In this document: one piece after another, positions 13,454 through 41,372 of the stretch
How positions within the stretch are numbered: position 1 is the first letter of the stretch
Layout of the letters: every line of letters begins with the position of its first letter
Assembly (NCBI RefSeq): GCF_016907695.1
Contig: NZ_JAFBCK010000001.1
Location: 7,180,001 to 7,244,000, forward strand
Reading direction: 5' to 3'
From: Actinokineospora baliensis
GTDB lineage: Bacteria > Actinomycetota > Actinomycetes > Mycobacteriales > Pseudonocardiaceae
DNA length: 64,000 nucleotides
Made by a program: the position numbers and the translations under genes
The notes under the pieces: model-generated
The model's database searches: none
The model's input: the letters and a program-made list of their open reading frames with translations, nothing else
Told to the model about the DNA's origin: nothing

Positions 13454-16400
13454 TCATCGTGCGCAGTCCTGTGCGATCGCCAGCAGCGCCGACTCGAACT
13501 CCCGTGCCACCGCTTCCACCGTCCCCCGCTCAAACTGATCCGCAGCGAAGTACCACACGAACGTCATCCGCCCATCCGAGGTCTCGCCAACGATGTCGAT
13601 CAAATGCCCCGTCCGATCAGCCGGATCATGATCAGCCCCGATCGCGCCCAACGTCTCCCCGAACAAGCTCTCCGACTCCGAAGCGGCTCGCGAATCGAAC
13701 TGCCCCAGGTAGTTGAACGACACCGAAGGCGACACATCCGACGACAGTGAGCCCAGGTAGCGCAGCGCGCTGTACCCGAATCCGTTCCCCGGCAGTTTCC
13801 GCAACTGCTTGCGGACGTCCTTCACCACCGTCCGCCAGTTGCCCTCCGGCACGTCCAGCACCACCGGGAACATGGTCGTGAACCAACCAACGGTGCGCGA
13901 GAGGTCCACATCGGACAGAACATCCTCGCGTCCGTGTCCCTCGAGGTGCACTCCCACCCGCGAACGCCCGGTCCACCGACCCAATGACCTGGCCAGCGCG
14001 GCCAGCAGCACGTCGTTGATCCGGGTCCGATAGGCAGTCGGCGCCCCGCGCAGCAACGCGTCCGTCACCGAGGCGTCCAGTGACACCGACACCGCGTCAA
14101 CCGCCGCTGTCCCAGCGGGACGGTCGACGGGGAGGGAGACGTCGCAGGATAGGGATTCCCAGTACGGGAGTTCGTCGTCGAGGCCGCCGGAGGCGACGAG
14201 GGCGGTGAGGCGGGAGGACCAGTCTTGGAACGAGGTGGTCTTGGCGCCCAGGTCGATCTCGCCGTGCAGGGCTTGGTGGTAGGCGGTGTCGAGGTCATCG
14301 AGGATGATTCGCCAGGAGACGCCATCGATTACCAGGTGGTGGGCTACTAGGAGGAGGCGGTGGCGGTCGGGGAAGGCGAGGAGAACAGCTCGGAGCAGCG
14401 GGCCGGTTTCGAGGGTGAAACCGGCGTGGATGGAGTCGGCGACCTTCTCCGCTTCGGCTTCGGAGGCCACCGGCACAACGTCCAAGATGGACTCGTTGGA
14501 CACCTCCGCGTTCCACTGGCGCCAGCCTTCGGCGTCGTGGGCGTACCGCAGGCGAAGGGCGTCGTGGTGCGACATCAGGGCCGACAGGGCCGAGCGGAGG
14601 GCGTCGACGTCTGGGGCGGCGGTCAGTTCGACGTAGTGGGCCTGGTTGAAGTGTTGGTGCGCGGCGCGCGGCGACGAGAGGAACCAGCGCTGGATGGGCG
14701 TCAGTTCAACCGGGCCGGTCACCGGGGCACGATCGGTCACAATGTCTACAAAGGTCACCACGGGGGCCAGGTCGGCGATGGTCTGGTGGAGGAAGAGGTC
14801 CTTGGTGGCGACCTTCAAGCCCGCCTGACGGGCGCGAGCGGCGACCTGGATGCTCAGGATCGAGTCGCCGCCGAGGGCGAAGAAGTTGTCCGCCAAGCCC
14901 ACGCGGTCCATGCCGAGGACGTCCGCCCAGACCTTGGCAAGGGCTTGCTCCACGGGGGTTGTCGGCTCGACGTAGGCGGTCGTGCTGGTGGCGAGATCGG
15001 GAGCGGGCAGCGCCTTGCGGTCGACCTTTCCGTTGGGGGAAACGGGGAGCGCGTCCATGAGAACGAAGGCCGTGGGGATCAGGTGGTCAGGCTGGGTCTC
15101 GGCCAGGAAGTCGCGCAACGCCGAGCTGTCTGGAAGGGACGGTCCAGCCGCGTAACCGACCAAGCGCTTGTGACCTGCCGGGTCGGTGTGCACGGCGGCG
15201 GCCGCGTCGAGCACCAGCGGGTGGGCGCGCAGAGCGGACTCGACCTCGCCGAGTTCGATGCGGAACCCGCGTACCTTCACCTGGTCATCAGCACGGCCGA
15301 CAAACACCAACTCACCGTCGACCGTCCACCGAACCACATCACCAGTGCGGTACATCCGACCACCATCAAACGGATTCGCCACAAACCGCGACGCCGTCAA
15401 CCCAGGCCGACCCAGGTACCCCCGAGCCAACCCCGCTCCTGCCACGTAAAGCTCGCCGGGCACGCCAACCGGAACCGGCCACAGGTCCGCGTCAAGAACG
15501 TACGCCCGCGTGTTCTCGATCGGGCGGCCGATCGGCGGGACCCCGCCCGGCACCAGCGGCGCACTCCAGGTGGCGACCACAGTGGACTCGGTCGGCCCGT
15601 AGGCGTTGATCATCGACCGGCCCGGCGCCCAGCGGGCCACCAGCTCCGCCGAGCACGCGTCGCCGCCGACGATCAGGGTGCGCAGGTCGGGCAGGTCGAT
15701 GTCCGGGACGGTGGCCAGCGCGACCGGCGGGATCAGGGTATGCGAGATGCGCTGCTCGGCCAGGACGGCGCCGAGCTGCTCCCCCAGCAGCGGTCCTGGC
15801 GGCGGCACCACGATCGCCGCGCCCCCGCCGAGGGCCATGCCCAGTTCCAGCACCGACGCGTCGAAGCTGGGTGATGAAAAGGCCAGCACCCGGTCGTCGG
15901 GGCGCACGTCGAACCGGCGAACCTCTGCAGCGGCGAAGCTCGCCAGGCCGTAGTGGGTGACCACGACGCCCTTGGGCCGCCCGGTGGAGCCGGACGTGTA
16001 GATCACGTACGCCGGGTTGGTCAGCCCGGGTTCCACCAGCTCGCCCGAGTCGGACTCGGGCAGGTGGCCGTCGAGCACCAGAACCGGTGCGGCGTCCTCG
16101 AGCATGTAGGCGATGCGGTCGGCGGGGTAGTTGGGGTCGATCGGCAGGAACGCCGCCCCGGCCTTGGTGATCGCGAGTTCGGCGATGATCAGCTCCGGCG
16201 ACCGTCCCAACCGGACGGCCACAACCTTCTCCGGCCCCGCACCCCCGGCCACGAGTGCCCGCGCGACCCGGTCGGTCCGCGCGTCGAGCTCACCCCAGCT
16301 GATCACCTTGTCACCGCTGATGATCGCGGGCGCGTCTGGCCGCAGGGATGCCTGACGGCGCACCAGCGCGGGCAACGTCCGGGGCTCGGTGAGGACGACG

Positions 16401-40046: not shown

Positions 40047-41372
40047 GGCGGCCGCGACGGCGACCGTGGTCTTGCGGGCGAGCCTGCCGCCGACCTGGAG
40101 CCAGGCGGGCGCGCCGGAGCCGTCGGCGAGGAAGCGGCCGACCTGGTCGGTCTCGCCGGTGTCGCTGTCGCGCATCGCGAACCGCAGGTCCGACATCGGG
40201 GTGAGGTCGGCGAAAGGCTCGCCGTCGACGGTCAGCCGCAGCCCCTCCGGGTGGTGCGCGACGGTGTAGACGGTGTCGCCGTTGGCGTAGTCACCCGCGC
40301 AGCCCGCTGGCGCGGGGACGGGGTCGACGACGTCGGGCACCGGGTTGAACCCGGCGACCGGGATCCCCAGGTCGGCGAGGTCGTCGGCCAGGGTGCGCCA
40401 CAGGGCGAACCCGGAGCCGGAGTTGGCGGTGAAGGCGACGACCGTGCCGGTGGACGGGTGCATCCGCAGGTGCGCGGAGGTCCCGTCGCCGGTGCCGTCG
40501 TGACCGACCACGGCCCGCTCGCCCCGCCCGTAGACGGCCAGGCCCAGCCCCCAGCCGTCGGCCATGCCGAAGGGCAGCGCGTCGGGGACGGCACCGCGCA
40601 TGTCCTTGAGCGAACCGGGGTCGAGCAGGTCGTTGCCCTCGGAGCCCGCGAGCGCGCGTCCCAGTCGGACCAGCTGCCATGCGCTCGTGGCGAGCGCGCC
40701 CGCTGGGGCCTCCAGCGGGGTCAGCGACTGCTCGACCGGTCGGACCAGACCGCGCGAGCGGTTGACGGTGTGCCCGGTCACCACGTCCGTCGACGCGTGG
40801 GGACCGACCACGAAGCGGGTGTCCACGCCGAGCGGGCCGAGTGCGATGGCCGTGACGGCCTCGGCCCAGTCCATCCCGGTGATCGACTCGATGGCGTGGC
40901 CGAGCAGCAGGTAGCCCACGTTGGAGTAGGAGAACGCGGTGCCGGGGGCGGCGATCGGGGTCAGCGCGGGCGCCGAGTCGTGCAGCAGCCTGCGCAGGGT
41001 GCCCGCCGAGGTCAGCGCGCTCTCCCGGGTGTCGGACGGGAGACCGGCGGTGTGGCTGAGCAGGTGCCGGGGGGTGATCCCGCCGAACGCGCCGAGCCCG
41101 GAGAGCTGCTCGGCGAGCGACTCGTCGAGTTCGAGGTCGCCGTCGGCGGCCAGGGCGAGCGCGGTGGCGGCGGTCACCACCTTGGTGATCGAACCGATCG
41201 GCACCGCGTCGTCGTCGGTCATCGACCGACCCGACCCGTGCCTGGTCTCCCCCGTGGACCAGGACCAGGTGTGCTCGTCGTGGTGGATGGCCAACTGCGC
41301 GCCGGGAACCGCGTGCTGCGCGACCAGCTCGGCGAGCCTGGTCGCGACGCGGGTTCTCGCTGATGCGTCCAT
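40044..41372 (-). CDS. PBP-type serine hydrolase, candidate trans-acting peptide cyclase (SurE-like)
   Basis: A 442-residue beta-lactamase/penicillin-binding-protein-fold enzyme. Catalytic motifs: Ser61-x-x-Lys64 (SITK), Tyr149-x-Asn151 (YSN) and HDG at 291-293 in place of KTG, followed by a C-terminal beta-rich domain (from about residue 345). There is no signal peptide, so it is cytoplasmic, unlike cell-wall PBPs. Stand-alone PBP-type thioesterases such as SurE (surugamide) and relatives in desotamide and mannopeptimycin clusters cyclise peptides from NRPSs that end in an E domain and lack a TE, accepting a D residue at the C-terminus. NRPS-B is exactly such a synthetase, and this gene lies 77 nt upstream of NRPS-A on the same strand. 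Alternatives are a D-aminopeptidase-like resistance enzyme or esterase. ATG 41372 follows GAGGA. Confidence 0.85.

Follow-up and report, generated by a model that had tools for sequence, protein, structure and literature searches.

An eight-module NRPS line lacking the adenylation domain of module 2, predicted to make a cyclic octapeptide of alternating L and D residues, in Actinokineospora baliensis and related genera

The stretch of 64,000 nucleotides analysed here in full (the window; G000:C1:7180001-7244000) belongs to the genome of Actinokineospora baliensis, of 7.68 Mb in one contig, and contains a nonribosomal peptide synthetase (NRPS) cluster of eight modules, accompanied by a cyclase of the penicillin-binding protein (PBP) type and by an exporter. 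Our results suggest, with a probability of roughly 0.55, that this cluster makes a head-to-tail cyclic octapeptide in which L and D residues alternate, and that its module 2, which has no adenylation (A) domain, is kept working by an A domain located elsewhere in the line. Module 2 consists of a condensation (C), a carrier (T) and an epimerisation (E) domain, a feature absent from an earlier, sequence-only reading of this DNA. All 20 full clusters of this type that were read, in five genera, have their C and E domains in this order and an A-less module 2. Computation established how the domains are ordered, to which types the E and C domains and to which family the cyclase belong, how far the cluster is conserved, and that module 2 lacks its A domain (A2).

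Cluster and domain organisation

The genes lie on the minus strand and follow each other, in the direction of transcription, as PBP-type cyclase, NRPS 1, NRPS 2 and MFS_3 exporter. The coordinates given previously for the first three were correct (40044-41372, 442 aa; 32437-40017, 2526 aa; 13454-32419, 6321 aa; all on the minus strand), and NRPS 1 probably starts at the ATG at 39966 rather than at the GTG at 40017. Motifs and profiles gave the order A1-T1-C2-T2-E2-C3-A3-T3 for NRPS 1 and C4-A4-T4-E4-C5-A5-T5-C6-A6-T6-E6-C7-A7-T7-C8-A8-T8-E8 for NRPS 2, which finishes with E8; the last module thus ends in E and carries no thioesterase (TE), as had been described. The features are the following:

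40044..41372, minus strand: PBP-type trans-acting cyclase, SurE/Ulm16-like (phmmer, AlphaFold/Foldseek, invariant residues)
32437..40017, minus strand: NRPS 1, modules 1-3 (motif and profile searches)
38437..39912, minus strand: A1, starter adenylation domain, pocket DALLVGAVV
38314..38532, minus strand: T1
37009..38247, minus strand: C2, LCL side of the tree, HHIVTDG
36952..37008, minus strand: C2-T2 junction, expected site of an A domain (no A remnant in Actinokineospora)
36745..36951, minus strand: T2, carrier domain without cognate A domain
35413..36696, minus strand: E2
34204..35442, minus strand: C3, DCL clade, PLTPMQAGM
32623..34098, minus strand: A3, pocket DVWHLSLVD
32500..32718, minus strand: T3
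13454..32419, minus strand: NRPS 2, modules 4-8, no TE (motif and profile searches)
31016..32278, minus strand: C4, LCL side, SSAQQRLW
29426..30910, minus strand: A4, pocket DTLDMGFID (gap placement from the A5 alignment)
29303..29521, minus strand: T4
27884..29266, minus strand: E4
26630..27913, minus strand: C5, DCL clade
25058..26524, minus strand: A5, pocket DTLDMGYVD
24935..25153, minus strand: T5
23627..24874, minus strand: C6, LCL side
22067..23527, minus strand: A6, pocket DTVDTGLVD
21944..22162, minus strand: T6
20606..21910, minus strand: E6, HHLVIDA variant
19463..20635, minus strand: C7, DCL clade
17912..19369, minus strand: A7, pocket DALLIGAVV
17789..18007, minus strand: T7
16454..17725, minus strand: C8, LCL side, SFAQQRLW
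14888..16348, minus strand: A8, pocket DALLIGAVV
14765..14983, minus strand: T8
13457..14728, minus strand: E8, terminal epimerisation domain, predicted to give a D C-terminal residue
11383..12627, minus strand: MFS_3-type exporter (Pfam PF05977, 2.9e-37)

Alternation of L and D residues

The profile TIGR01720 and the motifs located E domains in modules 2, 4, 6 and 8 only, as the sequence-only reading had proposed, and the E profile matched nowhere else in the two NRPSs. E2, E4, E6 and E8 scored above the NCBIfam cut-off (86.8-133.4 bits; cut-off 74.2), and TIGR01720 gave no match to C2 and C3, the two C domains scanned alongside. All four E domains carry HHxxxD(G/A)VSW, EGHGRE, VGWFT and FNYxG(Q/R), so that none of them appears inactive from its motifs, inactivity being a finding that the earlier reading had named as contrary to alternation. 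The DA ending of the E6 motif is shared by 14 of 16 clusters and by all four of the fifth genus, and DG was present in the nine other E domains scanned in the A. baliensis genome. In Allokutzneria E6 has DG, and one Actinokineospora cluster (G001) has DA in E4 too.

The C1 motifs alternate, with PLTPxQxGM after an E domain and SxAQxRLW elsewhere. This had been read from the sequence and agrees with a tree of 87 domains, comprising 42 C domains of the cluster type (six genomes), 8 of its E domains (two of those genomes), and, after filtering by score and length, 30 C and 7 E domains from other NRPSs of the host genome. In this tree a single clade (SH-aLRT 100) unites C3, C5 and C7, and it joins, with support 83, nine post-E C domains of the host genome, five of them within a protein and four opening a protein after one ending in E. 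The other 21 of the 30 host-genome C domains fall outside this group; C2, C4, C6 and C8 form a separate clade (100), which is placed among the C domains outside it. The phylogenetic check proposed earlier therefore placed modules 3, 5 and 7 inside the DCL clade and the other modules outside. The E domains of the cluster type are monophyletic, with the pairs E2+E8 (94/88) and E4+E6 (91/84), neither at the starred level of the tool; the grouping of E2 with E8 hints at a hydrophobic residue 2.

The E domains of modules 2, 4, 6 and 8 would invert the newly added residue, and the DCL-type C domains of modules 3, 5 and 7 would take the D-ended chain. An alternating L/D stereochemistry is thus well supported by the C-domain phylogeny together with the intact E motifs. 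The repeated C-A-T-C-A-T-E unit looks like a duplicated dimodule, and the strict alternation could be a consequence of this duplication.

Cyclase and chain release

The gene at the head of the operon, previously described as encoding a PBP-type hydrolase, encodes a SurE/Ulm16-type cyclase according to both sequence and model. It is a separate gene, and the NRPS line next to it has a terminal E domain and no TE. phmmer aligned its product to SurE (6ksu) over residues 4-432 with an E-value of 3.9e-65 and to Ulm16 (8fek) with 2.7e-57. The AlphaFold model (mean pLDDT 90, eight C-terminal strands) was compared by Foldseek with SurE (TM 0.86/0.86, 37% identity, 446 alignment columns), followed by Ulm16 (TM 0.75/0.81), and is consistent with the SurE-family layout of an N-terminal hydrolase domain and a C-terminal lipocalin-like beta domain. 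S61, K64, Y149-S150-N151 and H291-D292-G293 are invariant in 19 aligned cyclases (itself and 18 relatives), and the catalytic Ser61, Lys64, Asn151 and His291 of the SurE family are all present. By sequence, the closest cyclases are those of Actinokineospora species (L080-L085, 71-89% identity), and cyclases 59-88% identical come from the same genus as the window.

PBP-type TEs act in trans and form head-to-tail macrolactams by linking an L residue at the N-terminus to a D residue at the C-terminus; for the latter, SurE prefers D residues that are neutral, aliphatic or aromatic (according to passages of PMC11735501). As an E domain is present in module 8 and missing from module 1, the predicted chain ends fit this rule. 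By analogy, the cyclase is predicted to release the chain and to close a head-to-tail ring by coupling L-residue 1 to D-residue 8. Head-to-tail release, as had been proposed, thus appears well supported by the SurE-like cyclase and by the rule on the chain ends in the available text of PMC11735501.

One cyclase homologue of Allokutzneria (G109:C323:34695-35942, in a draft of about 480 contigs) contains one in-frame TGA, which would be a sequencing error or a sign of decay.

Loss of the adenylation domain of module 2

In the region 36718-38280, Pfam recovered Condensation and PP-binding and no AMP-binding domain, and the PF00501 matches (two in NRPS 1 and five in NRPS 2) amount to seven A domains for eight T domains. 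Not every module can therefore activate a residue of its own, module 2 being without an A domain. Because the order is identical in nine other Actinokineospora clusters, obtained from 15 other genomes of the genus, this absence is not an assembly artefact. A2 was also missing in all 22 loci of this cluster type (6 in Actinokineospora, 13 in Saccharothrix, 1 in Actinophytocola and 2 in Allokutzneria), which were drawn from 36 loci scanned, the other 14 having other architectures or too little sequence; this set shares some genomes with the 20 full clusters.

A stump of the A domain persists between C2 and T2 in 15 of the 22 loci, those of Saccharothrix and Allokutzneria. It comprises about 117-131 residues of the C-terminal A subdomain (92-113 bits, profile positions 356-492 of 492) and, by eye, has neither the A core nor the NGKxD motif of active A domains. 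The other seven loci, from Actinokineospora and Actinophytocola, gave a match to the linker only (21-30 bits). In a fifth genus the same architecture was found in four genomes, all with a stump by eye, two of which were placed in the tree. The stumps form one clade (100/100 with 8 stumps; 100/99 with 8 stumps and outgroups), and therefore the A core was probably lost in a single event among the stump-bearing lines. From the shared architecture, we infer that Actinokineospora and Actinophytocola may share this loss. An intact A domain is present in module 2 of three clusters that have longer lines and cyclases of 49-52% identity (G369, G356, and the second locus of G242 on C67), which are useful as outgroups.

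The stumps were also considered as a pointer to the A domain that module 2 formerly had, an idea that was set aside since their clade stands beside no particular A domain. In G369, the pocket of the module 2 A domain resembles, by eye, the valine code DAYWWGGTF.

The rest of module 2 has been retained. The motifs HHxxTDG of C2 and HHLVVDG of E2 are intact in 16 of 16 clusters and in the four of the fifth genus. Between the window and three relatives, the ratio of nonsynonymous to synonymous substitutions (dN/dS) was 0.15, 0.28 and 0.33 for C2, 0.06, 0.06 and 0.17 for T2, and 0.13, 0.22 and 0.35 for E2. The other domains gave similar ratios (0.03-0.45 for all 26 domains in the three pairs). Over all cluster pairs T2 was the most conserved T domain (mean identity 0.80, versus 0.58-0.79 for the others), in a comparison based on 15 of 16 clusters for T1-T3 and 12 of 16 for T4-T8, a motif filter having dropped the rest. 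Because of this conservation, module 2 is likely to be loaded. It is also very improbable that the cluster is a decaying or silent relic without a product. The loss of A2, and of a second A domain in Allokutzneria, does resemble erosion, and the G109 cyclase homologue has its in-frame stop; the low dN/dS of every domain, the open frames, which are long in each of the 20 full clusters, and the retention of the cyclase in 10 of 16 Actinokineospora genomes argue for a functional system instead.

Loading of module 2

At the sequence level, module 2 corresponds to the kind of A-less module with intact C and T domains that is known from the CmnA-A1/CmnI pair of capreomycin, in which the A-less module CmnI is charged by CmnA-A1, as shown by protein mass spectrometry (passages of PMC12400406). 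In view of the intact motifs and purifying selection in module 2, and as no stand-alone NRPS-type A gene was found beside the clusters in the stretches fetched, a different A domain of the same line probably loads residue 2, as in capreomycin: an ancestor would have lost the A domain of module 2, and an A domain elsewhere in the line would have taken over its loading. A1 is the first candidate, with A7 and A8 as alternatives, and it is the simplest because it is the only A domain of NRPS 1 kept in every genus read. Since the pocket of A1 is nearly that of A7 and A8, residue 2 would be hydrophobic whichever of these three loaded it.

The same alternating octapeptide could also arise if an A domain encoded elsewhere in the genome, in a different gene or cluster, acted on T2 in trans, in which case residue 2 would differ. 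Stand-alone A-T proteins serve modules with an absent or inactive A domain in the syringomycin, ramoplanin and enduracidin systems (as described in passages of PMC8949500), the host genome holds 101 AMP-binding matches, several in stand-alone A-T proteins (e.g., L117, L123 and L133), and the double loss of A domains in modules 2 and 3 of Allokutzneria would be compatible with an outside supply. We nevertheless consider this origin of residue 2 rather unlikely. No stand-alone NRPS-type A gene, and no stand-alone A-T gene of the SyrB1/Ramo17 kind, was found beside the clusters of the five genera in the stretches fetched (34 kb in the case of the window, 40 kb per cluster for the nine of Actinokineospora and the four of the fifth genus, and 51-60 kb per cluster for the six of the three further genera). 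A rescan, which took in the whole window, the loci of other genera and 14 kb on the upstream side of each of the nine Actinokineospora clusters, added two weak A-like proteins at one locus each: L096 (110 bits), which resembles an acyl-CoA synthetase by eye, and L078 (56 bits). The one stand-alone A-T protein checked for co-occurrence, L117 (582 aa), was rejected as a partner: in the 21 other genomes compared, of which 15 carry the cluster, no relative exceeded 52% identity.

A further scheme dispenses with the charging of T2: T2 would receive the residue carried by T1, E2 would epimerise it, and C3 would take it over, yielding a heptapeptide. This would agree with the absence of A2 and with continued selection on T2 and E2. 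However, the chain would then start with a D residue, in conflict with the coupling of an N-terminal L residue by PBP-type TEs in the text available from PMC11735501, and the HHxxTDG motif of C2 is kept in 20 of 20 clusters. The heptapeptide is therefore judged quite improbable.

Several points weigh against an octapeptide line with in-line charging of module 2. The stump is not clearly allied, by identity or in trees, with any one A domain of the line. In the Allokutzneria loci L098, L100 and G049 (L098 and G082 being the same record) module 3 also has no A domain, so that either one A domain would serve three T domains there or outside A domains would be used. When Actinokineospora was compared with the other genera, the lead of T2 among the T domains disappeared (T2 0.736, T5 0.739). 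E6 carries HHLVIDA in place of HHxxxDG. Finally, the loading of T2 by another domain and the residue identities are predictions from sequence, the latter made by comparison with pocket codes.

Predicted residues and ring

The pocket codes listed above are identical in A7 and A8. They were read with a gap in front of position 239, as HMMER introduces it when A5 is aligned with the first A domain of LgrA; the second A domain of LgrA aligns without a gap, giving E at 239 (DTE...), and this position is accordingly unsure. The codes used for comparison were DVWHLSLVD for Ser, DFWNxGMVH for Thr, DTWDMGYV for the ornithine of daptomycin and DAYWWGGTF for Val. No useful pocket-code paper was found in the full-text literature, and the residues of A1 and A3-A8 were assigned against these reference codes. 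We take A3 to select Ser and A4-A6 to select basic residues, resembling the daptomycin ornithine code, and A1, A7 and A8 presumably select bulky hydrophobic or aromatic residues, a call that we regard as unsettled. The three cationic positions of the sequence-only reading thus stand insofar as A4-A6 resemble the ornithine reference code.

The type of pocket is kept at positions 1, 4, 5, 6 and 8 across the genera compared. Position 7 has a Thr-like pocket in the two Saccharothrix, two Actinophytocola and two fifth-genus clusters compared. At position 3, one Saccharothrix cluster has a Thr-like pocket and a second one an unclear pocket. The pocket comparison thus indicates that the alternation and the cationic arc are conserved and that two side chains vary.

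The predicted ring would be X1-dX2-Ser-d(basic)-basic-d(basic)-X7-dX8, with X a bulky hydrophobic residue, and it would be amphipathic, with one hydrophobic and one cationic arc. Of the octapeptide claimed earlier, the eight modules are confirmed, and the sequence does not settle the ring size, which depends on how module 2, having no A domain, is loaded; the loader of T2, the residues, the closure of the ring and any activity are predictions. Tentatively, these clusters may represent a natural family of even-numbered, strictly L/D-alternating, all-amide cyclic octapeptides, a counterpart of the designed nanotubes, in which one A domain charges both T1 and T2 after a stepwise loss of A2, first of the core and then of the stump. 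A nanotube-like activity is speculation. Should the prediction hold, rings of the type that has been designed as membrane-active nanotubes already exist in nature.

Distribution and comparison with known systems

The 20 full clusters are those of the window and nine other Actinokineospora, six in three more genera and four in the fifth genus, and their A domains agree as well, except for the absence of A3 in Allokutzneria. The cyclase (E-values up to 1e-103) was found in 43 of 390 genomes of the family, representing 6 of 46 genera and including the Actinokineospora genomes counted above; the NRPS architecture was read for part of these 43. No description of the cluster or of its product was found among the papers listed in full-text searches of the CC-licensed literature, which leaves out most subscription papers. 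NRPS lines with a PBP-type cyclase are already known, and what is unusual here is the phylogenetically documented loss of an A domain.

The line of surugamide A, with SurE, is similar in its eight-residue macrolactam, its stand-alone PBP-type cyclase and its closure between an N-terminal L and a C-terminal D residue (passages of PMC11735501), a closure that is predicted here. Surugamide A is a cyclic octapeptide with four D residues. In that line, the D residues reportedly do not alternate strictly, an A-less C-T-E module is said to be absent, and the residues differ from those predicted here. Capreomycin CmnI and viomycin VioI are likewise A-less modules, and CmnI is charged by an A domain of the same pathway (PMC12400406, in part), as in-line charging is proposed here. 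CmnI is a separate protein, whereas here the A-less module lies inside a multimodular protein and relatives keep an A stump. CmnI is also said to have no E domain. The lines of syringomycin (SyrE/SyrB1), ramoplanin and enduracidin share a module with an absent or inactive A domain within a long line (from passages of PMC8949500), but they employ a stand-alone A-T protein, and none was found beside the present clusters in the fetched stretches.

Lugdunin, with seven residues, is a natural stacked-ring channel that has been compared with the designed even-numbered D,L rings (part of PMC11389392). It is a heptapeptide, whereas an even-numbered, all-amide ring is predicted here. It reportedly comes from Staphylococcus and is closed by a thiazolidine. 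To our knowledge, it is the nearest known natural case of stacked-ring channels. Linear gramicidin is said to have a formylated N-terminus and no PBP cyclase. It resembles the product predicted here in its strict alternation of L and D residues (in a passage of PMC11389392) and differs in being a linear 15-mer.

Several genera with cultured strains carry the cluster, and its compact set of four genes suits heterologous expression. It also provides a testable case of A-domain loss, with outgroups that have an intact A domain, lines with a stump only, lines without a trace and lines that lost two A domains.

Flanking regions

The exporter gene lies shortly downstream of the second NRPS in all nine other Actinokineospora clusters and in all six of the other genera. 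Between the two, P0004 (12624-13457) does not look like a gene, its product being Gly-rich and matched in one of nine relatives only (41% over 184 residues). Upstream of the cluster, a small gene at 42241-42522 on the plus strand is conserved, with matches in at least seven of the nine Actinokineospora; its product of 93 aa looks by eye like a CBM48-type carbohydrate-binding domain and gave no Pfam match. The six-frame comparison of this flank was noisy and usable only for this gene. The roughly 870 bp between it and the cyclase gene (41373-42240) are similar to relatives in several frames, and are perhaps a regulatory region or an overlooked gene.

Further downstream, a haem-oxygenase-like iron enzyme (PF14518; 3247-4218, minus strand) lies close to an ATP-grasp protein (5502-7076, minus strand). 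They occur near the cluster in two and five, respectively, of the nine other Actinokineospora stretches, and possibly constitute a separate small biosynthetic locus. At the other end of the window, 58263-61607 on the minus strand encodes a long protein with kelch/galactose-oxidase-like and fibronectin type III domains.

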